DNA of 64,000 bases from Candolleomyces eurysporus (taxonomy: Eukaryota; Basidiomycota; Agaricomycetes; Agaricales; Psathyrellaceae): contig JANBPK010000754.1 in the NCBI GenBank assembly GCA_027579435.1, positions 1 through 64,000 on the forward strand, in the 5' to 3' direction. A model generated the notes under the pieces. The model worked only from the letters and a program-made list of their open reading frames with translations. It was not told where the DNA came from and made no database searches. A program made the position numbers and the translations under genes. Every line of letters starts with the position of its first letter. The stretch's first letter is position 1. Below, one piece after another: positions 34,489 to 64,000 of this stretch.

Positions 34489-35228
34489 TTTTCAATTTCA
34501 ACCTTGTTCTGCGTTATAGGTGCGATAGATTTCTGAATCAACATAATGACGAGAAACTGTGGGGCCAAATAGCGGGCAGCTTTGCTCTCTGTTGAGTTGA
34601 GCTACGCGATGCCCAACCCGATCGCGTCTGGAAGGATTGAAGGTCGAGCACCTTGTCAGCCCGGTAGTTGAAAACCATCGGTTGCCCACTTCGAGTTGTG
34701 TGCATGAATAAATAATGCAAACGTGTGATTCTACAATGCATGGATTACTCAAGAACTACTCGACAGACATATCCTTCTGACTCTCTCACTATTATACTTC
34801 GTTCATTACGAGCCACAAAGACAAAACAAAAAAGTCTCTCACCATTGCTCTAGGATATTTCATTCGAGCCTACAGGGATCATCCGTACAATTACCGTCTC
34901 TTTGTGAAGCACAATCACAGCATCAGGTGGAGAATGACGAGGATCTGGCGACCAACTGGCGACATATCCGCCTCGAGACATGGCTGGGAGATTTGGGTTT
35001 AATAGATTTGACCTAGCAGTTCTGAACCACCGTAATAATGAGCGTACATATTAGAACAGATTTACGACTGTGAAGTTCCTAATTAGATTTGCAGTTCCTG
35101 CTGCTCGCTGGGGTAAATAATTGTATTACATGATCGTACAGTATGAGGTTCACTCGGGGCCTTCGATGCACCTCGGGCATACGGTTCTCAATCCTACAAA
35201 GCCACGAACACCATCCATGCGCTCCCGC
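34489..35228. other. spacer; left border of the duplicated array
   Basis: 34489-34969 has no recognisable feature. From about 34972 (TCGAGACATGGCTGGGAGATTTGGG) to 35228 the sequence matches the spacer that follows each plus-strand membrane gene (40505, 47705, 53775, 62335 on). The array therefore begins inside the 3' flank of a plus-strand membrane gene that is absent here; the CHAT gene occupies its place. Confidence 0.65.
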
Positions 35229-37154
35229 TCAATATTCTCCACTTCTCAGCTTTCGGGAAGTGGTGGGTTCAATAAACACATTGACGAACCCCACAAACAG
35301 AAACGCAGTCCCTCCCGCCAAACAAACGCCGCCAATCCAAGCATTTTTCATTGGTTCTACGTCTGAGGCCACCAACTCGATGACATTGTACGCACCCCTG
35401 CCTCGACCGAATACGCTACTGTTGCAGTAGCACGTGTCAAAGAAGTTACCGAATTGGAAGAGGCAAATGGCGAGGATCCAGAGCGCATTAAAGGTTGCGA
35501 CAAGTTTGGCTAGACGCCGCAGGAAGATGGCGAAGTGCCGGGCGATGGACAGGCGCAAGGGATAGGAGCGTCCTGCATGGTATCGCTGGAGATTCAAAAG
35601 CCTGCTTCCAGTGTAGGCTGATGATGGTGAAGACGTAGCCACGTAGTGCACGAGGAGGCTTGAAATGAGGAGAAGGTGCCAGACGATGGTCGAGAGAGCA
35701 CCGAACAATAGGTATGATGCTGAACGACAGCCTAAACCTGCAGAGCGATGCGTGAGCCCTTCAGTGTTGACTAAAAGGAGGAAGGTAAAAGAGTACTGCT
35801 CACCCGTGGTTGGTGTATAATATACAACTATGAAGGCTGCGCCAACCGTGCCCCATTGAAGCATGAACGCCAAAGCCGAGGCTATAGCAATCCTCGAGGA
35901 AACGTTCGGGCCCCACTTGCTCCTGAAGTCGGCGTGTCGATAATGGGGATCAAACTGGCAATACCTAGCCACTTGCGACACATTCCCCACCCTATTCCTG
36001 TCATGCGGCTTCGACCAAGAATCCCCAATTCTATCGCTCATAGTAATCCATCCAATCATAGGATCCACCGAATCATGGTGATGATAGCGCTCGGACACGA
36101 CCCTAAACGTCTCGGACACCTTTTCCACCGCCTGAACCCACGGCAAGAAGCGTGCATAATTATAGATAGGCGCCGTAACCATCTCATCGCATCTCAGTAC
36201 TTCATCCTCTTCTCCGGAGGCGAGGTAAATAGCCCTCTCCTCCGTAAGCTCCTTGGCCAACACAGGGTGCGTATCCGTCGCTGCATACGCGATCTCATTT
36301 GCCTTCTTTACCGCACTCCTCACCCTGTCCTCGTCGCATTTCGGCGAAATCTGCAACCAGCCAATGACGATGGGGAGGAGCCATAGCCAAAGCGAGCCTA
36401 CACCCTGACCATCGGGGTTGAAATCCGAGGCCAAGTCGCCCGTAAACGAGTTCGTGACGATGAAGATGAACGCAATGACGACCCATGCAATGGATGTGAC
36501 AGTTGAAATAGACCACGTGTGGTGGTAGGCCAGCCATTCAATTAACTCCTTCCACCACGGATCGTTCTGGGGAAGGACGATCAACGAGGCGAACAGTGCC
36601 CCTTCGTTCGTAATTCGAAGAGGTGCTTGTTGTAGACTGCTGAGGACACGAATGGCGTTCTGTTTGTTGGGGTATTTGTGCTTCGAGAAATGTCGAGTAA
36701 TCCACCTTCCATTGAGTACGGTAAGTGCGAGCGAGTACGCTGCAAGCATCGGCGAACCGACGGTTAGAACAACAGACTCGAGGTTCTCGAGCCTATCCGT
36801 CGGTCCAAAGGGGAGCTGCGAAACCAGCGCAAGCCATGGTAGAAGCCACGAACTGAATTGTTGAGAGAATTTTGGCCAGTGGAATGGTTCTTTCCCTGAG
36901 CCGCACGCCTTGACGCACAGGTCATAGGTGACCCCGGTGGCTTGTGTGACATCTTCTAGTATGTTTCCATAGTTGTCGGTTGCGCCTATCTTGCCTGTAC
37001 CAACGGTGCCATTTTTAACGCTTTTGAGGCAGGCGTCGAAGCTTGTGGCATGGCTGGTGACATGCAGAGATGAGAGGATAGCGAAGAACAGCAACCTAGA
37101 CCCTGCTCCGAGTAAGAACCAAACTCGATCAAGGGGAAGGAAACACTTACACAT
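35229..37154 (-). CDS. polytopic membrane protein, array copy 1
   Basis: The 4-nt first exon ATGT (37154-37151) is followed by intron GTAAGT...GAGCAG to 37103, exon 2 37102-35804, a 66-nt intron (35803-35738, GTGAGC...CTGCAG) and exon 3 to 35229. Both introns are multiples of three without stops, so the unspliced frame also stays open. Spliced length is 603 residues: signal peptide or anchor (LLFFAILSSLHVTSHA), a Cys-containing GTGKIGATDNYGN...TGVTYDLCVKACGSG domain, then about eight membrane helices (among them FSSWLLPWLALVSQLPFG, SIAWVVIAFIF, LWLWLLPIVIGWL, GALSTIVWHLLLISSLLVHY, VCLAGGTAFLFVGFVNVF). CYCNSSVFGRG precedes the last. I know related proteins only as uncharacterised agaricomycete proteins. 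One extra T near the end changes the C-terminus from PPLPES-type to TTSRKLRSGEY. Confidence 0.8.
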   Translation of the reverse strand: MCKCFLPLDRVWFLLGAGSRLLFFAILSSLHVTSHATSFDACLKSVKNGTVGTGKIGATDNYGNILEDVTQATGVTYDLCVKACGSGKEPFHWPKFSQQFSSWLLPWLALVSQLPFGPTDRLENLESVVLTVGSPMLAAYSLALTVLNGRWITRHFSKHKYPNKQNAIRVLSSLQQAPLRITNEGALFASLIVLPQNDPWWKELIEWLAYHHTWSISTVTSIAWVVIAFIFIVTNSFTGDLASDFNPDGQGVGSLWLWLLPIVIGWLQISPKCDEDRVRSAVKKANEIAYAATDTHPVLAKELTEERAIYLASGEEDEVLRCDEMVTAPIYNYARFLPWVQAVEKVSETFRVVSERYHHHDSVDPMIGWITMSDRIGDSWSKPHDRNRVGNVSQVARYCQFDPHYRHADFRSKWGPNVSSRIAIASALAFMLQWGTVGAAFIVVYYTPTTGEQYSFTFLLLVNTEGLTHRSAGLGCRSASYLLFGALSTIVWHLLLISSLLVHYVATSSPSSAYTGSRLLNLQRYHAGRSYPLRLSIARHFAIFLRRLAKLVATFNALWILAICLFQFGNFFDTCYCNSSVFGRGRGAYNVIELVASDVEPMKNAWIGGVCLAGGTAFLFVGFVNVFIEPTTSRKLRSGEY

Positions 37155-37512
37155 GCAGGGGGAAGTTTAGTAGGTAGCAAGAGTCAATGAAGGGTTGAAC
37201 GACGCTTTTAGGACCGAAGAAGTGCTGTGAAGTCGTTCTTCGATTCCCAGGGGCAGCGGGATCGGAGTACGTCTTACCCAAAATATGAAGCGATCTAACG
37301 GTGGAGGGACAACCCCTATTGACGTTAGCTTCACAGCAGTCCTTCCGATAAGGACCACGCGCCGTTAGATGCTCAGTCCCGGAAATGTCAAATAAAGAAA
37401 TGGTATTGAATCATCAAGGGCGTGGATCACTAAGGGTGTAATGGAGAGAAGGTAAGTCTACAAGGAGAGCAAGAACCAGAAAAAAGGGAGCTGAAACGCA
37501 CACACAGCATGT
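37155..37512 (-). promoter_or_regulatory. upstream region of copy 1
   Basis: Shared with the other minus-strand copies: a GACGCTTTTAGGACCGAAG module next to the gene and one copy of the AATGTCAAATAAAGAAATGG module near 37386, present three times upstream of copies 4 and 5. It also contains GTTAGCTTCACAGCAGTCC, conserved in all units. No clear TATA box. Confidence 0.5.
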
Positions 37513-38160
37513 CTACAGGACGGCGCTCACAGCTTGAGTCACATCAGACGGGGAGGTCATCAACCTCTTGAGCATGACCACGCCAGCTTCCATACAATCG
37601 TTGAAGGAAGATGACCAGGCCCACTCCCAGTTGTTCTTCACAGCTTCCCCGAGCTGCTTTAAGACCTGCTGCTGCTCAGCCTGAGACGTGCACTTCGCAA
37701 TCCGATTCTTGAACTCTATTCGTATAGAACGATCCATTAAGGTGGGCAAACTTCGACTGCGAAAGGCCTTCTTCGAACGGCATCATACGAGGACAAGACC
37801 TTGGGAATGTCACGAACGGTGACAGATGGTTTCGAAAGCAACGTAGCGAGGAAATAGGCATCCTAAATTCAATCGTGGTGTCAGATGCCAAGAAAACGAA
37901 GGAAGGTTCACGGGTTGTGTGAGTACTTGATGCCTCACCTTAATGCCTTGACCAGGGCCCGATCCTTGAACCATGGCATGCGCCTGTAACAGATTCACCA
38001 CTCCGAAGGCAACAGTTATGGTGACTGACGGCATCACCAACAAATGCAATGCCATCCACAGTGTAAGAGTCTAAGGGAGTATGAATGGCGGCGCATCAAT
38101 GAAAAGATGCAGAGGGAGTGACGCCGTACCTGGGGCCATGCCTGGACGGACGGTTCGGAA
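37513..38160 (-). pseudogene. flavin monooxygenase 3' fragment, unit 1
   Basis: After splicing (GTCAGT...TTACAG and GTGAGG...TTTAG) the minus strand reads GDA|AHAMV, QGSGPGQGIK|DAYFLATLLSKP and KVLSSYDAVRR, ending VTQAVSAVL at 37513. This is the GD motif and C-terminal region of salicylate hydroxylase-like FAD monooxygenases (FAD_binding_3 type). It lacks the N-terminal FAD-binding half, loses HQ of the HQGSGAGQG motif and has a stop after RRRPFAVEVCPP. A promoterless 3' fragment. Confidence 0.7.
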
Positions 38161-39480
38161 GCCTTCGCTTGCTGCCTTTCGTACTTCGCTCTCTCGACTG
38201 CTGTTATCCTCTTTGGAGGTTTTGGCGCGGATAGAATCGGTTTCGGATAGGGAGGCGATCTGAGCGGGAGTAAAGTGTTGTCGGGAGCGAGGGATGACGA
38301 TGCATGAGAGTGAATGCCTGCCTTGGACGTCGTGTGCAGTTATAGAGCGGCGTCGACGATTTCGGAGACTAAGGATTTGGAAGGGGGTTTCGTGTCGCTG
38401 TAAGGAAGAATTCGTGGATTAGCACACCAGGAGACAACTTGAACGGTTTAAATCTCACTCGGTAACGTCGAGAGCCGTGAATAAGACGTTCTAGCCCTCA
38501 TCGAAACACATTCGTCCGATGTGGGGTTTGAGGACTTTGAGAATTAATTTCCGGTCTTGGACGGTACCGTATGCGAGGAACTCGATCTTTGGTGTGGACC
38601 ATCTCGGCGAGAACGTCCTGGCATCTGTACACACATGCACGTCAGTCAGGGAGATATAGGAGCTAGGTAATGATAACTTACATTTCGAAAGTCTCTCGAC
38701 GCAGTTTCTCTTGCTCTGCTTCGTCGGGTAGACCGCTGAGTGCGTTCAAGTGCTCCCAAGCGCCCGGTGGACCACTGCATAGGTGATAGCGCCCTTGTCA
38801 GGTTATCGAATATGTGAGAATTCAGTCTTTGAACGTTCACTTTCCCGAGCACGGAAGCGTACACAGTGGTGAGATTCTCCTTAAATGGAGAAAGAACCCC
38901 GTTTCCGTTCGACGTCAACGCCTTCAAGGATTCCAACCAGTTCTTTCTTCGCTTTCTCCTTCTCCTCATTGCTGCCGGTTTCCAGAGTGAAAAGGGCTGC
39001 CCCTTTTCCAAAGAACTCGCGCAGGAGGATCGAACGTTCGTACGCATTTGCGTAGAGCTCGAATTTTAACCTGACCAGTTGATGGTGCAGACTATGTCTC
39101 CGTCCTCCATCTCAACGTCCGACCACTCGTCCTCATCATAGTCAGGCTCTGATGCATCTCCATCTGAGTCGCTATGGCTGCTTTCGGTATCCAGAACAGC
39201 AGTCACAGGCCGACTTCGCATTTTCTCCGTCGATTTTGTTGCATCATTGCTTTCTAGCTGCGGTTATTTGGATTTTGAAGCTACTTGTTTTCCCTTGTCT
39301 TTGAACTTGCGCTTCTGCCCTGTTTTTGAGGGGTTAACCATGATTTTGAAAGGGCCACCTGGGTAGTGGAGGAGGAGCCAGGACGAGAACAAGGAGGATA
39401 AGGATATGTCTGCCTGAGATTTCGCAAACGGTTTGCGATCAATTTGATGGGTCAAAAATAGAATCTTGTTCACACGGTTG
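38161..39480 (-). pseudogene. truncated PUF6 copy, unit 1
   Basis: Begins at the codons equivalent to KAASEG of PUF6 (27547) and runs toward the N-terminus, with frameshifts throughout. At 39060/39061 it jumps from the middle exon directly to the Asp/Glu-rich N-terminal region, deleting the exon with TAERQKHVKDLM. It keeps the ancestral reading HFTPAQIASLSETDSIRAK, which the 27-kb gene has lost. Confidence 0.75.
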
Positions 39481-39902
39481 CCATATCCCACTGACGGCTT
39501 GACAGGTTAAGCGGTCTCGAGGGCTATTTCGAAACTTTTCGTGCTGATGCTCCCTGGTCTCTGACGTTACTTGTTGATCCAATATCAATCAAACAAGGAG
39601 ACCATTGTTTTTCGAGCCCGATGGGCGGTTAGGAGGTCCATCGCCTATGGGCGCATCTCTATCGCTGAATTCTGTTGACTGAATGTCGACTGAAAACCAC
39701 AGATGTCCCCGGTTTGTTCGGGTCGTGAGCCAACGATCCGGAATTTGCTATACCTTCTCCTGAGCTTGGTTATGATGTCCCTTAACAGCGATGATGCAGT
39801 GGCGAGCGATGGGGCAACTTCATCCGCTACAGAACACACACACGAACGCCCCTATCATGCTTCGAAGGGTCTAAAGCTCAGTTGGCAACATACCCCTTCA
39901 GC
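39481..39902. other. remnant spacer before a plus-strand membrane gene
   Basis: The IES6 copy present in the other units is missing. The rest (39535-39900) is diverged upstream sequence of the plus-strand membrane genes (compare 45345-45690). Confidence 0.5.
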
Positions 39903-39965: not shown

Positions 39966-40483
39966 ATGCGTAAGTACTGTTTCCTCCTCACACCGAGTTG
40001 ATCCTTACCAGCTCCACCATGGTTTGGCTGATGCTCCTCGCTTCAAGTTTCCTAACGCACTACGTTTCGACTTCACGATATCATCAAAGCAAGCCTCCCA
40101 GACGATCCAAAGCAACCCATAAACGCTCTTGTCAGCAGATCGTTTCAAGCTCACATTGGTACTCAGTCCCTCGACAACTCGCCATAGCCCTCCGGCGTCT
40201 CGCTAAACTTGAACTCCTCGCGACATTCAACGCTATCTGGATTGTGGTCACCTGTGTCTTCCAATTCGGAAGCTTCTTTGACCGGTGTTACTGCAACAGC
40301 AACGTTTTTGGCAGAGAGAATTCTGCATTCAATGTTATTCAACTGACGTCGGAAGATGTGTCCCCAATGAAGAATGCTTGGATTCGAGGGGTTTGTTTGG
40401 CGGGTAGGACAGCAATTGTATTCGTAGGCTTTGTTAATGTGTTTATCAATCTGCCGCTTCCCGACTCGGAGGAGAGAGGCTAG
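39966..40483 (+). pseudogene. membrane protein deletion derivative, plus strand
   Basis: Promoter, ATGC first exon (39966-39969) and GTAAGT donor are kept, but the intron (to CTTACCAG, 40010) then runs straight into CTCCACCATGGTTTGGCTG, deleting about 1.4 kb of exon 2 and intron 2. Splicing at that AG would be out of frame. An internal ATG (40019) gives a 154-residue C-terminal piece with the last three helices, CYCNSNVFGRE and a duplicated LELLAT insertion relative to LAKLLAT. Probably non-functional. Confidence 0.8.
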
Positions 40484-40771: not shown

Positions 40772-42543
40772 TCAGGAAGTGGTGGGTTTAATAAACACAT
40801 TGACGAACCCCACAAACAGAAACGCAGTCCCTCCCGCCAAACAAACGCCGCCAATCCAAGCATTCTTCATCGGTTCTACATTTGAGGCCACCAACTTGAT
40901 GACATTGTATGCACCCCTGCCTCGACCGAATACGCTACTGTTGCAGTAGCACCTGTCAAAGAAGTTGCCGAATTGGAAGAGGCAAGCGGCGAGGATCCAG
41001 AGGGCATTAACGGTTGCGAGAAGTTTGGCTAGACGCCGCAGGAAGATGGCGAAGTGCCGGGCGATGGACAGGCGCAAGGGATAGGAGTGTCCTCCATGGT
41101 ATCGCGGGGCAGTCGGAGGCTCGATTTGAGTGCAGGCTGATGATGGTGAAGACGTAGCAACGTAGTGCACCAGGAGGCTTGAAATGAGGAGAAGGAGCCA
41201 GACGATGGTCGAGAGAGCGCCGAACAAGAGGTATGATGCTGAACGGCAGCCTAAGCCTGTAGGGCGGTGTATGAGCCCTTCAGTATTGAATAAAAGGAGG
41301 AAGGTAAAAGAGTCCTGCTCACCCGTGGTTGGTGTATAATATACAACTATGAAGGCTGCGCCAACCGTGCCCCATTGAAGCATGAACGCCAAAGCCGAGG
41401 CTATTGCAATCCTTGAGACCACGTTAGAACCCCACCTGCTCGTGGAGGCGGTGTGTGGAGAATGTGCAACCACTTGTGAAACACTCTCCACCCCAAACGT
41501 CTTGGACACCTTTTCCACCACCTGAACCCACGGCAAGAACCGTGCATAATTATAGATAGGCGCCGTAACCATCTCATCGCATCTCAATACTTCATCCTCT
41601 TCTCCAGAGGCGAGGTAAATAGCCCTCTCCTCCGTGACGAACACACCGTGCGTACTATTTGTCGCTTCATACGCGATCTTATTCGCCCTGTCTACCGCAC
41701 TTCTCACCCTGTCCTCGTCGCATTTCGGTGAAATCTGCAACCAACCAATGACGATGGGGAGGAGCCATAGCCAAAGCGAGCCTACACCCTTACCATCGGG
41801 ATTGAAGTTAAAATCCGAGGCCAAGTCGCCCGTAAACGAGTGCGTGATGGTGAAGATGTACGCAATCACGACCCATGCAATGGATGTGACAGCTGAAATG
41901 GACCACGTGTGGGGGAACGCCAGCCATTCGATCAACTCCCTCCACCATGCATCGTTCTGGGGAAGGACGATCAACGAGGCGAGTAGAGCCCCCTCGTTCG
42001 TAACTCGAAGAGGTACTTGTTGTAGACTGCGGAGGACACGAATGGCGTTCTGGATGTTGGGGTACTTGTACTTCGAGAAATGTCGAGTAATCCACCTTCC
42101 ATAGAGTACGGTAAGTGAGAGCGAGTACGCTGCCAGCATCGGCGAACCAACGGTTAGAACAACGGACTCGAGGTTCTCGAGCCTATCCTTCGGTCCAAAA
42201 GGGAGTTGCGAAACCAGCGCAAGCCATGGTAGAAGCCACGAGCTGAATTGTTGAGAGAACTGTGGCCAGCGGAATGGTTCTTGCCCTGAGCCGCACGCTT
42301 TGACGCACAGGTCATAGGTGACCCCGGTGGCTTGTGCGACGTCTTCTAGTATGTTTCCGTAGCTATCGGTTGCGCCTATCTTGCCTGTACCAAAGGTGCC
42401 ATTTTTCACGCTTTCGAGGCAGACGTCGAAGTTTGTGGCATGGCTGGTGACATACAGAGATGAGAGAATAGCAAAGAACAGCGACTTGGACCCTGTTCCA
42501 AGTAAGAACCAACTCGATCAAGGGGACGAAAGCACTTACGCAT
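40772..42543 (-). CDS. polytopic membrane protein, array copy 2
   Basis: ATGC first exon 42543-42540, then GTAAGT...GGAACAG into RSKSLFFAILSSLYVTSHAT. Same domain order as copy 1, with CLESVKNGTFGTGKIGATD, YDLCVKACGSGQEPF, eight helices and CYCNSSVFGRGRG. A deletion of about 40 residues removes the loop between KVSKTFG and SQVV, including the W-x-KPHDRNRVG segment, but keeps the frame. Intron 2 (GTGAGC...CTACAG region near 41273-41323) is also open when read through. C-terminus KPTTS followed by the remaining tail. Likely still translatable. Confidence 0.75.
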
Positions 42544-42811
42544 GCTAGGGAGGTTTAGTAGGTAGCAAGAGTCATTGAAGGGTTGAACGACGCTTTTAAG
42601 CTGACCCCAAGTTCATTTCCTGAAGTTAGCTTCACAGCAGCCCTTTCGATAAAGACCACGCGCCGTTAGACGCTCAGCCGCTGAGATATTGAATTAAGAG
42701 ATGGTATTGAATCATTAAAGACGCATGGCGATGGTGGCACGGAAAGACAAGGAAATTCTACAAGGAGCACCAAAACCAGAAGATAGGGGAGCTGAAACGC
42801 ATACAGCATGT
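42544..42811 (-). promoter_or_regulatory. upstream region of copy 2
   Basis: Shorter than in the other units: one AGATGGTATTGAATCATTAA module and the AGTTAGCTTCACAGCAGCCC block. Confidence 0.45.
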
Positions 42812-43392
42812 CTACAGGACGGTGCTGACAGCTTTAGTTACATCAGACGGCGAGGTAATCAGCCTCACGCACAACCATCCCAGCTTCCATACAGCCGTTG
42901 AAGGAAGATGACCAGGCCCACTCCCAGTTGCTCTTCACGGCTTCGCCGAGCCCGAAACGCGCGCTTCGCGACCCGATTCTTGAACTCCGGATGATTCATC
43001 GTGTAGAACGATCCATTAAGGTAGGACCAGCGGCAAACTTCGACTGCAAAGGGCCTTCTTGAACGGCATCATACACGGACAAGGCCCTGGGAATGTCACG
43101 AACGGTGACAGATGGATTTGAAAGTAGCGCAGAGAGGAAATAGGCATCCCAAAGTCAATCGTGGTGTCAGATGCCAAGAAAACAAAGGGAGGTTCCTGGG
43201 TTGTACTTGATGCCTTACCTCAATGCTCTGACCAGCGCCCGATCCTTGATGCCATCCGCAGTGTAAGAGTCCAAGGGTTCAATGTTATAAATAGCGCATC
43301 GGTGACTGATAATTATTTACCTTGTTATGTATAAGGGAATGCAGAGGGAGTGACGCCATACCCGGGGCCATGCCTGGACGGCCGGTTCCTAG
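42812..43392 (-). pseudogene. flavin monooxygenase 3' fragment, unit 2
   Basis: Same fragment as unit 1. The AHAMVPHQGSG exon has lost most of its sequence (CGATCCTTGATGCCATCCGCAG joins directly). CKRAFRA-type and RRPFAVEVC blocks remain with frameshifts. Confidence 0.65.
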
Positions 43393-44660
43393 GCCTTCGC
43401 TTGCTGCTTTTCGTACTTCGCTCTCTCGACTGCTGTTATCCTTTCTGGAGGTTTTGGCGCGAAACCGGTTTCAGATAGGGAGGCAATTTGGGCGGGAGTA
43501 AAGCGCTATCGAGAGCGAGGGATGACGAGGTATAAGAGTGAACGCCTGCCTTGGACTGTCGTGTACAGTTTTAGTCAACGATTTCGGAGACCAAGGATTT
43601 GGAAGGGAGTTTCGTGTCGCTGTAAGGAAGAATTCGTGCTTTAGCATTCTAGGAGACAACTTGAACGTTTTAAATCTCACTCAGTAATGCCGAGAGCCGT
43701 GAATAAGACGTTCTGGGCCTCGTCGAAACACATTCGTTCGATGTGGGGTTTGAGAACTTTGAGAATCTGTTTCCAGTCTTTGGCGGTACCGTATGCGAGG
43801 AATTCGCGTACGACTCTGCTTCCATCTTGGGTGTGGACCATCTCGGCGAGACCCATCTGTACATACATGCACGTCAGTCGGGGAGATACAGGAACTAGGT
43901 GATGATAATTTACAGTTCGAAAATGTCCCGAAGCAGAGTCTCTTGCTCTGCTTCGTCGGGTAGACCGCTGAGTGCATTCAAGCACTCCCAAAGTGCTTGG
44001 TGGACGATTGCATGGGTGATACACCCCTTGTCGGGATATTGAATCTGTGAGAATTCGGTCATTGAACGCTCACTTTCTTGAGCACGGGTGACATTCTCCT
44101 TAAATGAAAAAAGAACCCCGTTTCCGCTCGACGTCAATGCCTTCAAGGATCCTAACCAGTCCTTTCTTCGCTTTCTCCCTCTCCTCGTTGCTGCCGGTTG
44201 CCAGAGTGAAAAGGGTTGCCCCCTTGAGCTTGCGCAGGAGGATCAAGTGCTCATACGCGTTAGCCTAGAGCTCGGAAGCGTCTGCGAAGACAGAGGTTGC
44301 TTCGCGGTGTAACCGGAGGACTTGGGGTTGGAATTCGAGGAGCATGGATTGACGATAGGTAGGGCAAAGCAGATGAGGTTTGTTACAAGGAACTGTACGA
44401 GCAGTCAATACCCGCATAAAGAGTAAGAATAGGACCTAGCTCACCTTGGAATATTTATTCTGCACCAACTCCCTAAATTTACCCTTCAGCTCTGAGGCAA
44501 CCTCGTCCCTCTCCTGGTCACCGTATTTCACGATCGTCTGGACAATTCGATTTGCATTGTGTTTGAAGACGATGTCCTTGACGTGCTTCTGGCGTTCAGC
44601 TGTGGGAGTGGAGGAGGAGCTGGGACGAGAACGAGGAGGATAATGGTTTGCGATCAATTT
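43393..44660 (-). pseudogene. truncated PUF6 copy, unit 2
   Basis: Starts at the shared KAASEG junction. Exons for LYLVIPRSR, MVHTQDGSRVVREFLAYG, LFTALGITE and FRELVQNKYSKVS are recognisable. A TAG interrupts the CPL part (SR*RFTPAQ), the LMSVIRGKV segment is deleted, and the N-terminal charged region is missing. Confidence 0.75.
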
Positions 44661-45110
44661 GATGGGTCAAAATATAGAATCTTGTTCACACGGCTGCCTA
44701 TCCCACTGGCAGGTTGAGCAAACGTTCGTTTGACGATGTCGACTCTTTCACCGTATCCACACTAGAAGATATCATTCATGTGAGTATAGTGTACCTGGGC
44801 ATAAATACTGAAGATATACTAACGAGCTCTATAGGCCCCCGAAAGGCGGAAACAAGAAGAAAGGGCCCTCAGATGGTGCACCAACACCCCAAGGACCGGT
44901 GGGTTTGTAATTGGCTCGTTGGACGAGATATCCGATATCTGATCCTTTTTCCAGTCTCTAGCTGAGCAGCTATCATATTTCCATTAACTCAGGCCATTCA
45001 AGAACCCCTACTACAACAAGAATGTCAACAGACGAGCTAAGAATCTCAGGACCGTTCTGGGGTAGGAACGGGAAAATGATAGGCTGAAGAGGAAGGCTCG
45101 TCGTAGCCTT
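44661..45110 (+). pseudogene. IES6 copy, unit 2
   Basis: Contains SKRSFDDVDSFTVSTLED, a diverged PPKGGNKKKGPSDG exon and NPYYNKNVNRRAKNLRTVLG, then stops (GGGGTAGGAACG). The YL1 domain exons are absent. Confidence 0.7.
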
Positions 45111-52700: not shown

Positions 52701-52744
52701 GTTTGGAATCTTGTTCGCACGGCTGCCAGATCGTAGGGTGGTGT

Positions 52745-53255: not shown

Positions 53256-53718
53256 TGGGTATCTGTACGGACCATCTCCATTTCTCGAATTCACAGTACT
53301 TCCCTCTGACATGACCTTTACGGATAATCAGTGGTAAGGGAGGGAGGTGTGCGCCGCTAGTTTAGTTGAAAACGCCAATTTAGGTGGGATGATTCCAGGT
53401 AGCCAGTGCAGATTGACGTGCTTGCAGCTGAGGCTGATGGAAACGCCATAGCCTTTTATTTTACGCGAAGCTGCAGGGTCACCGGTTACCAACGCACTAA
53501 GGCCTAAGGCCTCACAGAGAGGCTTTCATCGCCCGACAGTCACCCTGATCTTGACGTACTTTGAATGTTTCGGGCAATCTTTCAGGCATTTTTTGCACTC
53601 TTGGGCCGCTACAGCTGTATCTCTCGTACAGCCGACGGGTAGGCTATTTGAATACATTGTGAAATCTTTCGCGTATTGACTAGTCTGTTAATATAACAGC
53701 CGCTTCTCTGCCACTTAA
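53256..53718. other. conserved spacer, no gene
   Basis: Matches 59640-60110 (upstream region of the plus-strand membrane gene), ending near CTTCTCTGCCACTTAATG. Confidence 0.55.
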
Positions 53719-54054: not shown

Positions 54055-55950
54055 TCAACTTTTGGGAAGTGGTGGGTCAATAAACACATTAACAAACCCA
54101 ACAAACAGAAACGCAGCCCCTCCCGCCAAACAAACGCCGCCAATCCAAGCATTCTTCATCGGCCCTGTGTCTAAGGCCTGTAGATCTATGATATTGTACG
54201 CACCACTACCTCGACCAAATACGCTACTGTTGCAGTAGCACCTTTCAAAGAAGTTGCCAAATTGGAAAAGGCAAGTAGTGAGGATCCAGAGGGCATTAAA
54301 AGCTGCGAGAAGTTTGGCTAGACGCCGCAGGGAAATGGCGAAGTGCCGGGTGATGTACAGGTGCAAGGGATACGAGCGTCCTCCATAGTATTGCTGGAGG
54401 TTCAGAGGCTTGATTTGAGTGTAGTGCACGAGGAGGCTTGAAATGAGGAGAAGGAGCCATACGATGGTTGAGAGTGCACCGAACAAGAGGTATGACGCTG
54501 AACGGCAGCCCAAACCTGCAAAGCAATGTAAGAGCCATTCAGTATTGACAAAAAGGAGGAAGGTAAAAGAGTACTGCTCACCTGTGGTTGGTGTAAAATA
54601 TACAGCTATAAAGGCTGCGCCAACCGTGCCCCACTGAAGCATAAACGCCAAAGTCGAGGCTATTGCAATCCTTGAGAAAACGTGAGGACCCCACCTGCTT
54701 CTGAAGGCAGTGTGCCTATTATGAGGATCAAACTGGCAGTACCAAGCCACTTGCGACACACTCCCCACCCTATTCCTGTTATGCGGCTTAGACCAATGAC
54801 CCCCGATTCTATCCTCCATATTGATCCACCCAATCGTAGGATCCACGGACTCATGATGATAATGACGCTCCGACACCACCCCAAACATTTTGGACACCTT
54901 CTCCACTGCCTGGACCCACGGCAAAAACCGCGCATAATTATAGATAGGCGCCGTAACCCTCTCGTCGCGTCTCAATGCATCGTCAACCTCATCCTCTTCT
55001 CCAAAGGCAAGGTGAATAGCCCTCTGCTCTGTAAGCTCCTTGACTGGTACAGGGTACCTAGCCGTTGCTGCATAAGCGATCGTATTCGCCCTCTCTACCG
55101 CACTCCTCACCCTGTCCTCGTCGCATTTCGGTGAAATCTGCAACCAACCAATGACAATGGGGAGGAGCCACAGCCAAAGCGAGCCTACACCCTGACCATT
55201 GGCGTTCATGGCCTCGGCCAAGTCGGCCCTGTCGCCCGCAAACGAGTCGATGACGGTGAAGACGTACGCGATAACGACCCATGCGATGGATGCCACAGCT
55301 GAAATGGACCACGTATGGGGGTACGCCAACCATTCAACCAGCTCCCTCCACCACGGATCGTTCTGGGGAAGGACGATCAACGAGGCGAGCAGAGCCCCCT
55401 CGTTCGTAACTCGAAGCGGTGCTTGTTGTAGACTGCTGAGGACACTAATGGCGTTCTGGATGTTGGGATAATTGTGCTTCGAGAAACGTCGAGCGATCCA
55501 TCTCCCATTGAGCACGGTAAGTGCGAGCGAGTACGCTGCCAGCATCGGCGAACCGATGGTTAGAGCAACGGACTCGAGGTTCTCGAGCCTATCCTTCGGT
55601 CCAAAAGGGAGCTGCGAAACCAGCGCAAGCCATGGCAGAAGCCACGAGCTGAATTTTTGAGAGAATAGCTTCCACTGGAATGGTTCTTGCCCTGGGTCGC
55701 ACGCTTTGACGCACAGGTCGTAGGTGACTCCGGTGGCTTGTGCGACGTCTTCTAGTACGTTTCCGTCTCCATCGGTTGCACCGATCTTGCCTGTACCATG
55801 TTTGCCATTTTTAACTTCTTCGAGGCAGCCGTCGAGGTGTGTGGCATGGCTGGTGACATGCAGAGATGAGAGAACAGCGAAGAACAGCAACCTCGACCCT
55901 GCTCCAAGTAAGAACCAGACTTAATCAAAGGGACGAAAACACTTACGCAT
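54055..55950 (-). CDS. polytopic membrane protein, array copy 5
   Basis: ATGC 55950-55947, GTAAGTG...GAGCAG intron, then RSRLLFFAVLSSLHVTSHAT and CLEEVKNGKHGTGKIGATDG. All helices present. Relative to copy 1 it lacks ten residues after LLVHY (VATSSPSSAY). The LAEAMNANGQGVGS loop and the CYCNSSVFGRGSG motif are intact, end PPLPKS. Both introns can be read through in frame. Apparently functional. Confidence 0.8.
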
Positions 55951-56461
55951 GCTGAGGAAGTTGAATAGGTAGCAAGAGTCATTCAAGGGTTGAACGACGC
56001 TTTTAAGACCGAGGGGGTGCTGTGAGGCCGTCCTTCGATTCCTAGGCGCAGCAGGATCGGAATGCTTCTTCCAGATTCATTAAACGGTGAATGCAGATTG
56101 AGGGAGTGCTGCGAGGTCGTTCTTCGATTCCCTGGAGCAGGATTGGAATGCGTCTTACCCAAAGTTCGCACCAATCCATCTGTGGAGGAACAACCCGTAT
56201 TGATGTTAGCTTCACAGCAGTCCTTGCTTGATAAGAATCACATGTCGTGAGGCGCTCGGTCACTGAAATGTCCAATGAAAAAATGGTATGGAATCATCAA
56301 ACGCATGAAGTCGTTGGAATGTCCGATGAAAAAAGGTATTGAATCATTAAAGGCGGGGAGACGCTGGAGAGTCGGATTAAAAAATGGTTTTAAAAATCAT
56401 TGTAGATGTCATAGCGACTCGGGGAGTGTAACAAAGTAGAGCTGAAATGCACACAGCATGT
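55951..56461 (-). promoter_or_regulatory. upstream region of copy 5 with tandem modules
   Basis: Two copies of the 75-bp module (55985-56160) and three of the 50-bp module (56255-56410), as upstream of copy 4. Confidence 0.6.
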
Positions 56462-57186
56462 CTACAGGACGGCGCTGAGACCATGAGTTATATCAGACGG
56501 GAAGTCAACCGTCCCTCGAGCGTGACCCCGCCAGCTTCCATACAATCGTTGAAGGAAGATGACCAGGCCCACTCCCAGTTGTTCTTCACGGCTTCCCCGA
56601 GCTGCTCCAAGACCTGCTCCTGCGCAGCCCGAAACGCACACTTCGCGATCCGATTCATGTGCCCCGGATGATTCATCGTGTGGAACGATCCATTGAGGTG
56701 GGGCTGACGGCAAATTTCGACTGCAAAGGGCCTTGGAACGGCATCATATACTGACAAGACCTTGGGGATGTCACGAGCGGTGACAGACGGATTCGAAAGC
56801 AACGTAGCGAGGAAATAGGCATCCTAAAGTCAATCGTGGTGTCAGGTGCCAAGAAAATAAAGGAAGGTTCACGGGTTGTGTGAGTACTTGATGCCTCACC
56901 TCAATGCTTTGACCAACACCCGATCCTTGATGAGGGACCATAGCAGGCGCCTGTGACAAATTCACCACTCCGAGGACAGCAATTATGTTGACTGACGGCA
57001 CCACCAACAAATGCAATGCAATCCGCAGTGGAAGAGTGCGTGCAATGCCATCCGCAGTGTAAGAGTGCAAGGGCTCAATGGTATGAATGGCGCATCGATG
57101 AACTGATAATCATTTACCCTGTTATGTATAAGAAGCAGAGGGAGTGACGCCATACCTGGAGCCATGCCTGGATGGACGGTTCGTAA
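56462..57186 (-). pseudogene. flavin monooxygenase 3' fragment, unit 4
   Basis: Longest fragment: AMVPHQGSGVGQSIE, DIPKVLSVYDAVPRPFAVEI and NNWEWAWSSSFNDCMEAGG, with frameshift near the end. A 32-bp stretch around GCAATGCCATCCGCAGTG is duplicated at 57020-57065. Confidence 0.7.
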
Positions 57187-58740
57187 GCCTTCCCTTGCTG
57201 CTTTTCGTACTTCGCCCTCTCGACTGCTGCTATCCTTTTTGGAGGTTTTGGCGCGGATAGAATCAGTTTCGGATATGGAGGCGATTTGGGCAGGAGTAAA
57301 GCGTTGCCGAGAGCGAGGGATGAAGAGGTATAAGAATGAGTGCCTGCCTTGGACTGTCGTGTACAGTTTTAGAGCGGCGTCGTCGATATCGGAGACTAAG
57401 GATTTGGAAGGGAGTTTCGTGTCCTTTAAGGATTAACAGACTAGGAGACAGCTTGGACGGTTTGATTCTCACTCGGTAATGTCGAGAGCCGTGAATAGAA
57501 TAACACGTCCTGGACACATTCACTCGATGTGGAGTTTGAGGAATTCGAGAATCTGTTCCGGTCTTTGGCAGTACTATATGCGAGGAATTTGTGCACGACC
57601 CTGCTTCCATCTTTGGTGTGGACCATATCGGCGAGAACGTCCTGGCATCTGTACACACATACACGTCAGCAGGGAGATATAGGGACCAGGTAATGGTAAC
57701 GCACATTTTGAAAATCTCTCGATGCAGACCGCTGGGTGGGTTCAAGTACTCCAAAAGTGCTCGGTGGACGATTGCATGGGTAATAGTTGCCTGAATGAAA
57801 AGGGTTGCCTCCCTGCCATAGAACTCGCGCAGAAGGATCGAATGTTCGTATGCGTTTGCGTAGAGCTCGAGAGCGTCTGCAAGGACAGAGGTTGCCTCGC
57901 AATGTAGGAGTTACCGTAGAACTTTGGGTTTGAATTCGAGCGGCATGGATCGACGATGGGTAGGGCAGAAGCGGATGAGCTTTGTTACAAGGAACTGTAC
58001 GAGCAGTCAATATTCGTATGAAAGAGTAAAAACAAGATCTAGCTCACCTTGGAATATTTGTTCCGCGCCAACTCCCTAAATTTGCTCTTGAGCTTCGAGG
58101 CCACCTCGTTGCTATCCTTCCGCCCACCATATTTCACGATCATCTGAATGATTGAATTCGCATCGTGTTTGAAGACAATATCCTTGACCTTCCCTCTGAT
58201 AACAGACATGAGGTCCGTGACGTGCTTCTGGCGTTCAGCTGTGGGTATGCTTTTTGCGCGAGCGAGAGACCGGACTCGTTTGGCTTCTAATAGCAAATCT
58301 GAGTGTAGTTTCGCTGCTCTTCGTTGCTCATACAAGGATTTTTGAGCTTTATGTGACTCCTTTGCGGCTATTTAAAGCCATTACAATACATCTGAGATAC
58401 GTAGAGTTAATAGACAACGTACCATCAGGATTTGAAACCTGACCGGTTGTCGGTGTTGACTCTATGCCTCCATCCTCCATCTCAACGCCCGAACACACGT
58501 CTTCATCATCGTCACGCTCCAATGCATCTCTCTCAGAGTTTCTAAAGCTGCTTTCGGTATCCAGAACAGCAGTTACAGGCCGACTTCGCTTTTTCTCCGT
58601 CGATTTTGCGGTACCATTGCTTTTCAGGTGCGGTTTTTTTTTTTTGATTTAGGAGAAGTCAGGACGAGAACAAGGAGGATAGCTTGGACATGTCTCCAGC
58701 GAGATTTCGCAAACCGTTTGCGATCAATTTGATGGGCAGT
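57187..58740 (-). pseudogene. truncated PUF6 copy, unit 4
   Basis: Same junction. Keeps in-frame YLFIPRSRQRFTPAQIA and SKKDSSSRE. Also keeps the exon starting after TTTAAATAG: AKESHKAQKSLYEQRRAAKL, which lacks the TAG seen at 28918. Deletions elsewhere, for example between the NPDKG and LFTL exons. Confidence 0.75.
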
Positions 58741-58789
58741 CTTGTTCGCACGGTTGCCATCCATTCACGGCTCTAGAGGGCAGGGGTGA

Positions 58790-59627
58790 CGATGTCGACT
58801 CTTCCACTGTATCCACATTAGAAGATCTTTCATGTGAGTATAGTAATACCTGGGCATAAATACTGAAGATATACTAAAGAGCTCTATAGGCCACCGAAAG
58901 GCGGAAACATGGTGCAGCAACGCTCTAAGGACCGGTGGGTTTATAATTGGCATCGTTGGACGAACTATCTGACATATGACCATGTTCTCAGTCTCCAGCC
59001 GAGCAGCTATATGTCTCCATTACCCCGGGCCATTCAAGAACCTCTACTACAACAAGAAGGTCAACAGACGAGCTAAGAATCTCAAGAGCGTTCTGGGGCA
59101 GAACAGGAAAAGGATAGGCTGAAGAGGTAGGCATTAAGAATGTCCAAAGCCAAAAAGGCTGCTATGGGAATGATAGGCGTCGATGGAGACGATGAAGATG
59201 AAGAACCTAATTGTACGATCTCGCCCATTCGTTATGCACAAGCCAGTCCTAATGTCCTGTTTGATTTGTTTAGACTCGTCTATCGAGGCGCCTCCCTCTG
59301 TCTGGCCTCCACGGCACTACTGCGAGTTTACGGGACTAGGGGTGACATCATTCAAGTCATACTCATTCACGCGTCTCAAAGGCACTGTGCACTGACCCTG
59401 CAACTGGTCTACGCTACCACAAGAGTGTTTACGAGATCATTCAGGGATTGGTGAGTGGCTATTTTCCCTCCATCGCCTCGCGTAGGCTGACGTATCGCTG
59501 TTATTAGAGTCCAAGCATGGTGAAAGATTACCTATCAGGTTGGTAGTTGGACCTGTCACAAAGATTTTCAGACTCTCACTTGCAAGCCTTTCCATTAGCC
59601 CGTGGTGTCAATCCGATCGTGAAATAG
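58790..59627 (+). pseudogene. IES6 copy, unit 4 (longest)
   Basis: Runs to the stop (RGVNPIVK*, 59625-59627) and keeps SSIEAPPSVWPPRHYCEFTG and SPSMVKDYLSG. It has a TAG in place of EA (LKR*ALRMSKAKK), a broken second exon and a frameshift at the TDPATGLRY exon. Confidence 0.75.
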
Positions 59628-60302
59628 AATGGATCATGGTTGGGTATCCGTACGGATACCATCTCCATTTCTCGAATTTACAGTACTTCCCTCTGACATG
59701 ACCTTGACAGATAATCAATGGTAAGGCGGGGAGGTGTGCACCGCTATTTTAGTTGAAAACGCCAATTTAGGTGGGATGATTCCAGGTAGCCAGTACAGAT
59801 TGACGTGGTTGCAGCTGAGGTTGATGGAAACGCCATAGCCTTTTATTCCACGCGAAGCTGCAGGGTCATCGATCACCAGCGCACTAAGGCCTAAGGCCTC
59901 ACAGAGAGGCTTTCACCGCCCGACAGGCACCCTGATCTTGACGTACTTTGAATGTTTCGGGCAATCTTCCAGGCATTTTTTGCGCTCTTGGGCCGCAGCA
60001 GTTGTATCTCTCGTACAGCCGACGGGTAGGCTATTTGAATACATTGTCAAAGCTTTCGCGTATTGACCAGTCTGTTAATATAACAGCCGAATCTCTGCCA
60101 CTGTACTTCGTTGACTAAAATCAACAGATGTTTTTGGGTTGTTCAGGTTGTGAGGCAACGATATGGAATTCGTTACGCTTTCCCTGAGCCTGGTTTGACG
60201 TCCTTTCACAGCTTTTATGCGGTGCTGAACGACAGGCGCAGCTTCATCTGCTGAAGAGCAAGATTCGAAGGATAGAATACTCAGTTAACAGCACCTCTCA
60301 TC
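59628..60302. other. conserved upstream region of a plus-strand membrane gene
   Basis: No gene. Starts with an 18-bp perfect palindrome (59643-59660). Shares blocks with 45111-45690 and 53256-53718. Confidence 0.55.
59643..59660. repeat. 18-bp perfect palindrome
   Basis: GGTATCCGTACGGATACC, just past the IES6 duplicate's stop. The unit 3 counterpart (about 53257, GGTATCTGTACGGACC) is decayed. Confidence 0.7.
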
Positions 60303-60312
60303 CCTATAACTA
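60303..60312 (+). promoter_or_regulatory. TATA-like box, plus-strand membrane gene
   Basis: CCTATAACTA then CCTGCTGGAG, 56 nt before ATG 60359, as for copy 3. Confidence 0.6.
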
Positions 60313-60358
60313 CCTGCTGGAGGGCCTCCTGCTAGGTACGCGTTTCACCATTTGCACG

Positions 60359-62289
60359 ATGCGTAAGTAATGCTACCTCCTCACGTTAAGTTGATCCTTA
60401 CCAGACTAAACATAGATTACAGGTTTCTGGCCTTCGTCGTCATATCCCTATCTATTTCCGGTCTGAATGCTACAGATTTTACTAAATGCCTCGAACGAGT
60501 CCGAAACGGAGAGGCTGGTACAGGCAAAATTGGCGCGACCGACAACCACGGGAACGTATTAGAAGATATCGGAAAAGCCACCGGTCTGACCTACGGACTG
60601 TGCGTCAGGGAATGCGGTTCGGGGCAGCAGCCTTTCCAGTGGACGATATTCTCTCAACAATTCAGCTCGTGGCTTCTGCCATGGCTTGCGCTGGTTTCAC
60701 AGCTTCCCTTTGGACCCAAGGACAAGCTCGATAACCTCGAGTCTGTGCTTCTCACCGTTGGTTCACCGATGCTGGCAGCCTATTCACTCGCCCTTACCGT
60801 GCTCAACGGCCGGTGGATCGCTCGACGATTCTCGAAGCACAATTACCCCAACATTCGGAACGCGGTTCGGGTACTCAGCAGCCTACAGCAAGCACCTCTC
60901 CGAGTGACCAACGAAGACGCTCTCCTCGCCTCATTGATTGTCCTTCCACATAATGACGAATGGTGGAGAGAGCTGATCGAATGGCTGGCCTATCCACATA
61001 CGTGGTCCATCTCCGCCGTCACATCCATCGCATGGGTCGTCACCGCGTACATCTTCACTGTCATCGACTCATTCATGGGAGACCTCACCACAACAATCAA
61101 CTCCCACGGCCAAGGCAGTGTGGGCTCGCTCTGGATATGGCTCCTCCCCATTGTCATTGGGTGGCTTCAGCTGTCACCCAAATGCGACGAGGTCAGGGTG
61201 CGCAGTGCCGTCGAGAGGGCGAACAAGATCGCCCACGTCGCGACGGATACCCACCCGGTTTTGGTCCAGGAGCATAGTACGGAGCAGAGGGCGATCTACC
61301 TAGCTTTTAGCGAAGGTGATGAAGACGACGATGTGCTTCGCCGTGATGAGAGGGTGACAGCACCCATATACAACTACGCTCGATTCTTATCATGGGTGCA
61401 GGCGGTGGAGAGGGTATCGAGGACCTTTGAAGTTGTGTCAGGTCATTATCGCCGCCACGAATCTGTTGACCCTGATATTACTTGGGTGACAACGGCTGAT
61501 AGAAGTAGTGGCCATTGGTCGAAGCCTCACGAACGAAACAGGGTGGGTAGTGCGTCTCAAGTGGCGAAATACTGCCTTAGTCCTGCAGGTGGTACCACCA
61601 CTAGAAGCAGATGGGGACCTGATATCTTCTCCCGGATTGCTATAGCCTCGGCATTGGCATTTCTACTGCAATGGGGGACAGTAGGTGCAGCATTTTCATC
61701 TGTATACCTCACTCCGACTACAGGTGAGTCAATATCCACTCTTGTCTATGTTTCAGCACTGATGGGTTGGACAATGACAGGTCTAGGCTGCCGGTCAGCC
61801 TCATATCTCTTATACGGGGCACTCTCCACCATCATCTGGCTGATGCTTCTCGCCTCAAGTTTTCTAACGCACTACGTCTCGACTTCACAGTATCATCGAA
61901 CTAAGTCTCCCAGACGATCTAAAGGAACCCGTAGCCGCTCCTGTCACCAAATCTTTTCGAGCTCACATCGGTACTCAGTCCCTCGACAACTCGCCATCGG
62001 TCTTCGGCGTCTAGCAAAGCTCCTTGCGACACTCAACGCTATCTGGATCATAGTCACCTGCGTCTTCCAATTCGGAAGCTTCTTTGATCGGTGTTACTGC
62101 AACAGCAGCGTTTTCGGTAGAGGGAAATCTGCGTTCAATGTTATCAAACTGACGCCGGAAGATGTACCCCCGATGAAGAATGCTTGGATCCGAGGGGTTT
62201 GTTTGGCCGGAGGGACAGCAGTTTTATTCGTAGGGTTTGTTAATGTGTTTATCGATCCGCCGCTTCCTGACTCAGAGGAGAGAGGCTAG
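60359..62289 (+). CDS. polytopic membrane protein, array copy 6 (plus, intact)
   Basis: ATGC (60359-60362), 53-nt intron GTAAGT...CATAG to 60415, exon 2 60416-61723, 57-nt intron 61724-61780 (GTGAGTC...GACAG), exon 3 to 62289: 606 residues with no break, the reference copy. Signal or anchor YRFLAFVVISLSISGLNA, Cys domain CLERVRNGEAGTGKIGATD to LCVRECGSGQQPF, eight predicted helices, acidic loop EGDEDDDVLRRDE, motif CYCNSSVFGRGKSAFNV before the last helix, tail PPLPDSEERG. Residues between helices 4 and 5 form a long hydrophilic domain with APIYNYARFL and WSKPHERNRVG. Function unknown; a secretory-pathway or plasma-membrane location is inferred from the signal peptide. Very close to copy 3. 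Confidence 0.85.
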
Positions 62290-62577
62290 AGAGCGGTACT
62301 TTCTTTACTGTAATAAAAAAAGAAATTTTTGTAGATCGAGACATGATTTGGAGATTGAGTCAGGTTTTATAGATTATAATGGGTGTACCTATTAGTACAG
62401 AATTGCGACTGTGAGGTCCCTAATTACACTCGCAGTTCGCTGCGGCGAATAACTATATTACATGATCATACGATATAAGGTTCACTCGGTGCCTTCCATG
62501 CACCTCGACCATACGGTTCTCAATCCCACAGAGCCACGAACGTAATCAACGTGCGCCCGCTCAATAGTCTTCACCTT
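62290..62577. other. convergent-pair spacer, 288 bp
   Basis: As in the other pairs, with a local insertion TAATAAAAAAAGAAATTTTTG near 62311. Confidence 0.6.
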
Positions 62578-64000
62578 TCAGCTTTCGGGAAGTGGCGGGT
62601 CAATAAACACATTAACGAACCCCACAAACAGAAACGCAGTCCCTCCCGCCAAACAAACACCGCCAACCCAAGCATTCTTCATCGGCCCTGTGTTTAAGGC
62701 TTCCCAATTTATGATATTGTACGCACCACTGCCTCGACCGAATACGCTACTGTTGCAGTAGCACCTGTCAAAGAAGTTGCCGAATTGGAAGAGGCAAGCG
62801 GTGAGGATCCAGAGTGCATTGACAGTTGCGACAAGTTTGGCTAGACGCCGCAGGAAGATGGCCAAGTGCCGGGCGATGGACAGGTGCAAGGGATACGAGC
62901 GTCCTCCATGGTATCGCTGGAGATTCAGGGGCCTGATTCCAGTATAGGCTGATGATGGTGAAGACGTAGCAACGTAGTGCACCAGGAGGCTTGAAATGAG
63001 GAGAAGGAGCCAGACGATGGTCGAGAGAGCGCCGAACAAGAGGTATGATGCTGAACGACAGCCTAAACCTGCAGGGCAATGCGTGAGCCCTTCGATAATG
63101 ACTCAAAGTAGGAAGGAAAAAAGCCGTGCTCACCCGTGGTTGGTGTAAAATATACAACTATAAAGGCTGCGCCAACCGTGCCCCATTGAAGCATGAACGC
63201 CAAAGCCGAGGCTATAGCAATCCTCGAGAAAACGTTCGGGCCCCACTTACTCCTGAAGTCGGCGTGTCGATAATGGGGATCAAACTGGCAATACCTAGCC
63301 ACTTGCGACACATTCCCTACCCTATTCCTGTCATGCGGCTTCGACAAAGAATCCCCGATTCTATCGCCCATAGTGATCCATCCAATCATAGGATCCACCG
63401 AATCATGGTAATGGTAACGCTCCGACACCACCCCAAACGTCTCGGACACCTTTTCCACAGCCTGGACCCAGGGTAAGAAGCGTGCATAATTATAGATAGG
63501 CGCCGTAACCCCCTCATCACGTCTCAACGTATGGTCAACCTCATCCTCTTCTCCAAAGGCGAGGTGAATCGCCCTCTCCTCCGTAAGCTCCTTGACCAAC
63601 ACAGGGTGCGCATCCGTCGCTGCATACGCGATCTTATTTGCTTTCTCCACCGCACTCCTCACCCTCTCCTCGTCGCATTTCGGTGAAATCTGCAACCAAC
63701 CAATGACGATAGGGAGGAGCCATAGCCAAAGCGAGCCTACACCCTGCCCATTGGCGTTAATAGCCTCGGCCAAGTCGCCCGTAAACGAGTCGATGACGGT
63801 GAAGATGTACGCAATCACGACCCATGCAATGGATGTGACAGCTGAAATGGACCACGTGTGGGGGTACGCCAGCCATTCGATCAGCTCCTTCCACCACGGA
63901 TCGTTCTGGGGAAGGACGATCAACGAGGCGAGCAGAGCCCCCTCGTTCGTAACTCGGAGAGGTGCTTGTTGTAGACTGCTGAGGACACGAATGGCGTTCT
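62578..64000 (-). CDS. polytopic membrane protein, array copy 7, cut by window end
   Basis: Minus-strand subfamily member whose 5' part lies beyond 64000. Visible from SLQQAPLRVTNEGALLASLI through the helices to PPLPES at 62578. The second intron (about 63066-63135, GTGAGCAC...CTGCAG) contains a stop in frame and is clearly spliced. No break in the exons seen. Confidence 0.8.

Follow-up and report, generated by a model that had tools for sequence, protein, structure and literature searches.

What keeps one gene of a tandem array intact when every internal copy of its neighbours is broken? The question is raised by positions 1-64,000 of a contig of Candolleomyces eurysporus (C1033, 147,115 bases, from an assembly of 65.9 Mb in 1,296 contigs; other contigs of this assembly are likewise denoted by C and a number). 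Within this stretch, which we call the window, and for a short distance beyond it, five head-to-tail units lying between about 27 and 67 kb multiply a gene for an uncharacterised membrane protein, here M, together with copies of PUF6, IES6 and a monooxygenase-like gene, FMO. Minus-strand and plus-strand copies of M are written M(-) and M(+). We consider it probable that a single tandem duplication founded the array, that the passenger genes are dead, and that M has been kept by purifying selection, with dosage or subfunction as the likeliest benefit.

Self-comparison of the window identifies five minus-strand and three plus-strand M copies between 34.97 and 64.0 kb (67-94% identical), and the spacers between them are alike at about 73-93%. 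The array does not end with the window: the start of M7 is at 64,492, and the repeats can be followed to about 65,580, within an FMO gene. Read along the plus strand, the order is PUF6(-), IES6(+), a CHAT-domain gene(+) and M1(-), followed four times by a spacer (FMO 3' half, PUF6, IES6), an M(+) slot and an M(-) slot, with FMO(-) beyond the window. Both edges run into uncut parental genes, a full-length (broken) PUF6 on the left and an FMO continuing past the breakpoint on the right. The tandem array in this contig is real. The original prediction had described such an array with a constant five-part unit starting at 34,972. The array itself is confirmed by its five units, by the repeats and by a junction common to all four spacers, and the general order recurs; however, spacer 1 lacks IES6, unit 1 carries the CHAT gene in the M(+) position and unit 4 has no M(+). 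Repeats do begin at about 34.97 kb, but a start there omits the PUF6-IES6-CHAT block, which lies at 27-34.5 kb. The features are as follows.

27016-29303, minus strand: left-end PUF6 gene (CPL domain, PF08144 match at 27016-27804), full length but broken by lesions
29726-30281, plus strand: left-end IES6-like gene (YL1_C domain, PF08265 E 3.8e-16), four examined exons open, first exon(s) outside the model
31354-34488, plus strand: CHAT-domain gene in the M(+) position (PF12770 at 33667-34488), with matches on C1016 and C628
35229-37154, minus strand: M1, complete, 3 exons, 603-604 aa (spliced model)
37320-38156, minus strand: spacer 1 FMO 3' half, broken, 3 frameshifts (alignment)
38154-38163, minus strand: first copy of the founding PUF6::FMO junction, at about 38,156-38,161 (alignment)
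38161-39500, minus strand: spacer 1 truncated PUF6, broken, 6 frameshifts and 3 stops, no IES6 exon found (alignment)
40012-40480, plus strand: unit 2 M(+) slot, 3' fragment only (self-comparison)
40772-42543, minus strand: M2, complete, 552 aa, lacking 37 residues in frame within a predicted loop (spliced model)
42621-45097, no single strand: spacer 2, holding broken remains of FMO (3' half), PUF6 (truncated) and IES6 (partial), with the junction at about 43,389 (alignment)
45747-47684, plus strand: M3, complete (608 aa) bar one ambiguous N at 46,648 (spliced model)
47981-49885, minus strand: M4, complete, 598-599 aa (spliced model)
50026-53256, no single strand: spacer 3, holding broken remains of FMO (3' half), PUF6 (truncated) and IES6 (partial), with the junction at about 51,052 (alignment)
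53715-53716, plus strand: unit 4 M(+) slot, deleted (53252-53715 matches 59637-60102, and 53715 onward matches 62240 onward)
54055-55950, minus strand: M5, complete, 593-594 aa (spliced model)
56105-59548, no single strand: spacer 4, holding broken remains of FMO (3' half), PUF6 (truncated) and IES6 (three of four exons), with the junction at about 57,183 (alignment)
60359-62289, plus strand: M6, complete, 606 aa (spliced model)
62578-64000, minus strand: M7, complete, 600 aa, start at 64,492 beyond the window (spliced model)
about 64.9-67 kb of C1033, minus strand, beyond the window: right-end FMO gene, 3' half open (further contig DNA)

Complete two-intron genes occupy seven of the nine M slots (five M(-), four M(+)), one of the seven being broken only at an N. 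All five M(-) slots hold complete spliced frames of 552-604 aa (M1, M2, M4, M5 and M7), while the M(+) slots comprise a 3' fragment in unit 2, M3 in unit 3 (intact but for its N), a deletion in unit 4 and the intact M6 in unit 5. The first exon is four nucleotides long in all seven genes (ATGC, or ATGT in M1); most copies had seemed to lack a start codon because this exon went unrecognised. Intron 1 (44-53 nt) begins GTAAGT, its acceptor being ambiguous by 3 nt in M1, M4 and M5, and intron 2 (57-66 nt) interrupts the same codon in all seven. Once spliced, M1, M2, M4, M5, M6 and M7 read 552-606 aa without a stop; the N of M3 adds one base, and M3 reads 608 aa without it. M(-) frames were judged on the spliced models, and alignment to M6 was used for M(+)-type copies and for in-frame gaps. 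The splice model is supported by the deposited Candolleomyces models P0001, P0004, P0005, P0006 and P0010, which begin with the residues that it predicts. Those of C. eurysporus (P0005, P0006 and P0010) are all labelled partial, and P0005 and P0010 read into intron 2; two window M genes are deposited as partial hypothetical proteins of this species. The seven long frames with the same introns, first noticed from the letters alone, thus stand, as do the in-frame indels: the loss estimated at about 40 residues in M2 is a deletion of 111 bp (37 residues), and ten linker residues present in M1 and M7 are absent from M5.

The spacers record how the array began. Alignment shows the PUF6::FMO fusion at the same place in all four internal spacers, and the same junction is found on contigs C570, C407 and C18. 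In each internal spacer PUF6 ends at the same codon (27,543-27,547 of the left-end gene) and FMO begins at the same point (contig 65,580-65,584), with a few shared bases at most by eye. Four identical junctions indicate a single founding duplication event. Since this junction cut both genes, the internal PUF6 and FMO copies were truncated at birth, and their decay therefore provides no evidence about selection on the neighbouring M genes. IES6, on the other hand, lies wholly between the two breakpoints and was probably copied whole, which makes it a fair control. The PUF6 and IES6 labels rest on CPL and YL1_C domain matches; FMO is a provisional label, its FAD_binding_3 match (E 0.0014) falling short of the curated cut-off.

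All internal passengers have decayed, as the original prediction held: PUF6 is broken in 4/4 copies, FMO in 4/4 (one by a single frameshift), and IES6 is lost or broken in 4/4. In 6,879 aligned coding bases the passengers carry 45 frameshifting indels (PUF6 30, FMO 11, IES6 4) and 13 stops (PUF6 9, IES6 4), counts that are lower bounds given local alignment and that include indels common to several units, so that the events are not independent. For IES6, spacers 1 to 4 retain 0, 1, 1 and 3 of the four exons examined; the 683 bases that align contain 4 frameshifts and 4 stops, and the copy in spacer 2 is broken by stops only. The left-end PUF6 looks parental but is also broken, with 3 frameshifts and 1 stop relative to the C1016 gene; its counterparts on C1016 and C628 are open. 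With the N of M3 set aside, the seven M copies contain no frameshift in 12,489 coding bases. Of the 113 columns that the family conserves at 95% or more across 91 other homologues, they also keep 108-113, the full set being present in M3 and M6. The contrast between intact M and broken passengers on which the prediction relied is therefore genuine, but PUF6 and FMO were cut at the founding and only IES6, a short one (683 bases), is a fair control. Selection is accordingly needed to account for only a part of the contrast, two of the passengers having been halved by the founding duplication.

We estimated the ratio of nonsynonymous to synonymous divergence (dN/dS, omega) by the Nei-Gojobori method (NG86) and by maximum likelihood (ML) under a codon model fitting transition bias. 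By NG86, the ten pairs of M(-) copies lie at 0.25-0.48, the M3-M6 pair has 0.11, and comparisons of a plus with a minus copy give 0.13-0.15. The ML values are 0.42 for pooled M(-), 0.15 for M(+) and 0.69 for pooled passengers; pooled pairs share branches, and their likelihood differences are descriptive. With values of 0.11-0.15, M(+) is clearly constrained; the copy under least constraint is M2 (ML 0.49-0.59 against M4, M5 and M7; 0.57 against M1). For IES6 the one pair with enough codons (67) gives an omega of 1.70, not distinguishable from 1. Purifying selection on the M copies is well supported by these values together with the kept frames, introns and conserved residues, in agreement with the selection first proposed for the membrane protein.

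The copies are also old. M(-) pairs differ at synonymous sites by dS 0.16-0.34 and PUF6 copy pairs by 0.20-0.26, and these matching ranges indicate that the M and PUF6 copies are alike in age. In the tree, the M(-) and M(+) clades split before the Candolleomyces species separated: P0008 of C. efflorescens falls within the M(-) clade, and P0012 (taken as C. aberdarensis) groups with M1 and M2 and has the distinctive C terminus of M1. The approximately unbiased (AU) test rejects a single clade of the C. eurysporus M(-) copies (p 0.024) and of its M(+) copies (p 0.0002). Judged by this tree, the duplications are older than the split between C. eurysporus and C. aberdarensis. P0016 (plus type, C. 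aberdarensis) and P0001 (minus type) come from contigs of equal length (20,126), a hint that the two types may be neighbours there too.

These results are consistent with the following history. A segment running from inside PUF6, through IES6 and the convergent M(+)/M(-) pair, to inside FMO would have been duplicated once in tandem, an illegitimate junction fusing the cut PUF6 to the cut FMO. Later amplification, presumably by unequal crossing-over, would have spread this junction to give five units with four identical junctions. Internal PUF6 and FMO copies would have been dead from the start, leaving an uncut FMO at the right edge and a full-length PUF6, later broken, at the left; the IES6 copies, probably whole, would have been redundant and decayed. 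Of the cargo, only the M genes would then have stayed intact, held by purifying selection from a time before C. eurysporus and C. aberdarensis split. The likeliest benefit may be more, or specialised versions, of a conserved polytopic membrane protein.

Several observations weigh against this history. The passengers themselves have NG86 values below 1 (PUF6 pairs 0.41-0.60, FMO pairs 0.25-0.59), so NG86 does not have a neutral value of 1 here, and their pooled ML value (0.69) is below 1 as well; this makes the pooled M(-) value of 0.42 by ML a smaller contrast than it appears. M2 and its counterpart on C407 give an ML omega of 0.70, for which omega = 1 is not rejected (2dlnL, twice the log-likelihood difference, 2.2). 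Thus, dN/dS of the M genes is in general not near 1 and, in the pooled ML values, is lower than in the passengers, but one comparison is indistinguishable from 1 and the passengers too lie below it. M(+) has been lost from two of the four array slots. The contigs disagree on the flanks of the units, and on C18 (3895-5739) the M3 counterpart, which was kept out of the spliced models, is interrupted by a 1,845-bp insertion. Finally, at a second locus, found on C1016 (230.7-233.4 kb) and twice on C125, an M(+) is followed by a remnant of 80-200 bp of M(-), and an FMO fragment follows on C1016 and after the first C125 copy; the locus is a dispersed derivative of the same cassette. None of the four M(+) sequences of this kind (C468, C125 twice, C1016) is free of stops and frameshifts: three have a TGA at the same codon, C1016 has a one-base deletion and a stop, and the first C125 copy has in addition a one-base insertion and one N. 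These lesions show that M copies are not kept everywhere. The positions of three of these sequences are as follows.

C125 5915-7826: second-locus M(+)
C125 12950-14857: second-locus M(+)
C468 2881-4788: second-locus M(+)

At 94.6% identity, the C468 sequence seems to correspond to the second C125 copy, and the nonsense change looks older than the separation of those three copies.

A further reading is that copy number itself is selected, the array being an amplification with M, a mushroom-wide polytopic protein whose fold is unmatched in the PDB, as its sole working cargo, and with clusters of the family elsewhere. In Paramarasmius, homologues carry the consecutive tags VNI00_000139/000140, and several Mycena, Galerina, Cyathus and Laccaria homologues come from contigs of equal length, which suggests such clusters. 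Selection for copy number as such, which the original prediction had raised, is plausible; the two lost M(+) slots and the second-locus lesions nevertheless count against it, and we give this view a minority share of our confidence.

The same prediction had proposed diversity, with the array generating variants of a recognition or defence receptor. M(-) copies do differ at 5-11% of nonsynonymous sites, counts of amino-acid differences by region show mildly higher variation in the loops than in most predicted transmembrane helices, and NACHT and CHAT frames lie nearby. However, no sign of recognition-type diversification appears in pairwise dN/dS, which is below 1 in every M pair tested and falls to 0.11 within the array, or in the retention of family-conserved columns, and on these two results we reject diversifying selection acting across M as a whole. 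Identity of about 48-62% across distant genera is, moreover, slow for a fast-evolving receptor. Every signal being purifying, we regard this proposal as improbable.

Neutral retention, in which the M copies would just have had too little time to decay, seems to us equally improbable. It would fit the weak constraint on M1-M2 (0.46 by NG86, 0.57 by ML) and on M2 and its C407 counterpart (0.60 and 0.70), as well as the decay at the second locus. Against it, not one of the equally old IES6, PUF6 and FMO copies is intact, and the passenger rate (which does not come from independent events) would predict about 82 frameshifts in the coding sequence of M, where none is found beyond the N.

Gene conversion from one functional master copy could also hold the M genes intact, and conversion is common among tandem paralogues. 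We consider it very unlikely here, given the synonymous divergence among M(-) copies, their long separate branches and the failure of the C. eurysporus copies to form one clade, and given that the spacers of the same units were not rescued. An assembly artefact is the least likely explanation of all, for although the assembly is fragmented and C570, C407, C18, C628 and C1016 join array pieces to other flanks, the units differ by about 6-27% with their own indels, the PUF6::FMO junction is present on four contigs, and only one N (46,648) lies inside the array, the next (66,438) falling in the right-end FMO gene. Purifying selection on M after a single founding duplication thus remains our preferred account.

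Stretches of C1033 recur at 93-99% on other contigs, 36.1-40.1 kb of it on C570, 40.1-48.0 kb on C407, 45.9-53.3 kb on C18 and 62.6-70.8 kb on C628, and each of these contigs runs on into different sequence after the match. They resemble a fragmented second haplotype. For the two stretches of C1033 that were tested, 10-12 kb and 77-78.5 kb, the assembly contains no further full copy, and it is therefore not simply diploid. On C628 (8221-21157) PUF6 is open, and the PUF6-IES6-CHAT block runs in the opposite order relative to M7 from that on C1033, which points to inversion or to misassembly; a further PUF6 3' piece lies at 11219-11534. C1016 has PUF6-IES6-CHAT and a truncated M1, with no array sequence in the 9 kb examined beyond. 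The insertion on C18 has a near-perfect 8-bp flanking repeat by eye and many short internal repeats, and the one frame scanned has no Pfam match. A zf-RVT (reverse-transcriptase associated) frame lies at 4190-4972 of C570, near the end of the array match at 4015.

Within the window, the CHAT domain itself spans 33667-34488, and the upstream frames are assigned to the same putative gene by position. An NPHP3_N/NACHT-type frame lies at 7347-8051 on the minus strand (NPHP3_N E 8.4e-19, NACHT just under its cut-off), and long frames at 15931-18626 resemble transposon proteins by eye, the two scanned having no Pfam match.

A protein database search shows that the M family spans Agaricomycetes. The 27 other homologues in our alignment are 48-62% identical to M6 and have the same conserved Cys and Trp positions; full-length alignment of the M copies with the family (P0011 type) shows the conserved Cys, Trp and Gly columns. 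Membrane proteins of Laccaria amethystina (K443DRAFT_682732, which is P0011), Hypsizygus marmoreus (Hypma_013864), Sparassis, Serpula and Jaapia are full-length homologues; array placement is shown only for the C. eurysporus sequences, whereas the others were compared as proteins. Two window copies match no Pfam family up to E 0.1. Among 29 members searched at E up to 1, seven families are each matched by a single member and no curated cut-off is passed; we take these matches, CTF_NFI (E 0.0029) and TrbC included, as chance. Searches of the PDB gave no sequence relative and no clear fold match, the Foldseek and VIA lists being a scatter of membrane and helical proteins with no relation to one another. 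The labels that UniRef gives to single homologues (Autophagy-related, MARVEL, Solute carrier) conflict with one another and were not used. We found no paper on the family or the array in a literature search that left subscription journals mostly outside; by topic and by species name it brought up work on taxonomy, enzymes and genomes and a paper on an anther smut, and by locus tag nothing.

Tandem amplification of a segment in which one gene is functional and its neighbours are incomplete or decayed is a familiar kind of event. The C. eurysporus array resembles it in its repeated segment, one kept gene and decayed neighbours, and differs in that the kept gene is uncharacterised, the paralogues are old and a convergent pair was amplified. 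An example is the HMA4 cluster of Arabidopsis halleri, for which tandem copies and ectopic gene conversion are reported (PMC3749932). Fungal recognition and cell-death genes are reported to include NLR, CHAT protease and gasdermin systems (PMC10197012, PMC12881547). The present locus is like these in that M1 has a CHAT frame next to it and a NACHT frame at a distance of 27 kb, and unlike them in that M shows no diversifying selection in its pairwise dN/dS and the CHAT neighbour stands at only one end of the array.

The event is thus of an ordinary type, tandem segmental amplification, but its history is unusually readable, and the sole maintained gene is an orphan conserved membrane protein. 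The locus offers a natural comparison, with genes of one age in one segment with known breakpoints, whose fates can be separated into cut at birth, redundant and kept. Beyond that, it draws attention to an Agaricomycete membrane-protein family that is large and strongly conserved, has a four-nucleotide first exon and lacks a model in the domain libraries searched.

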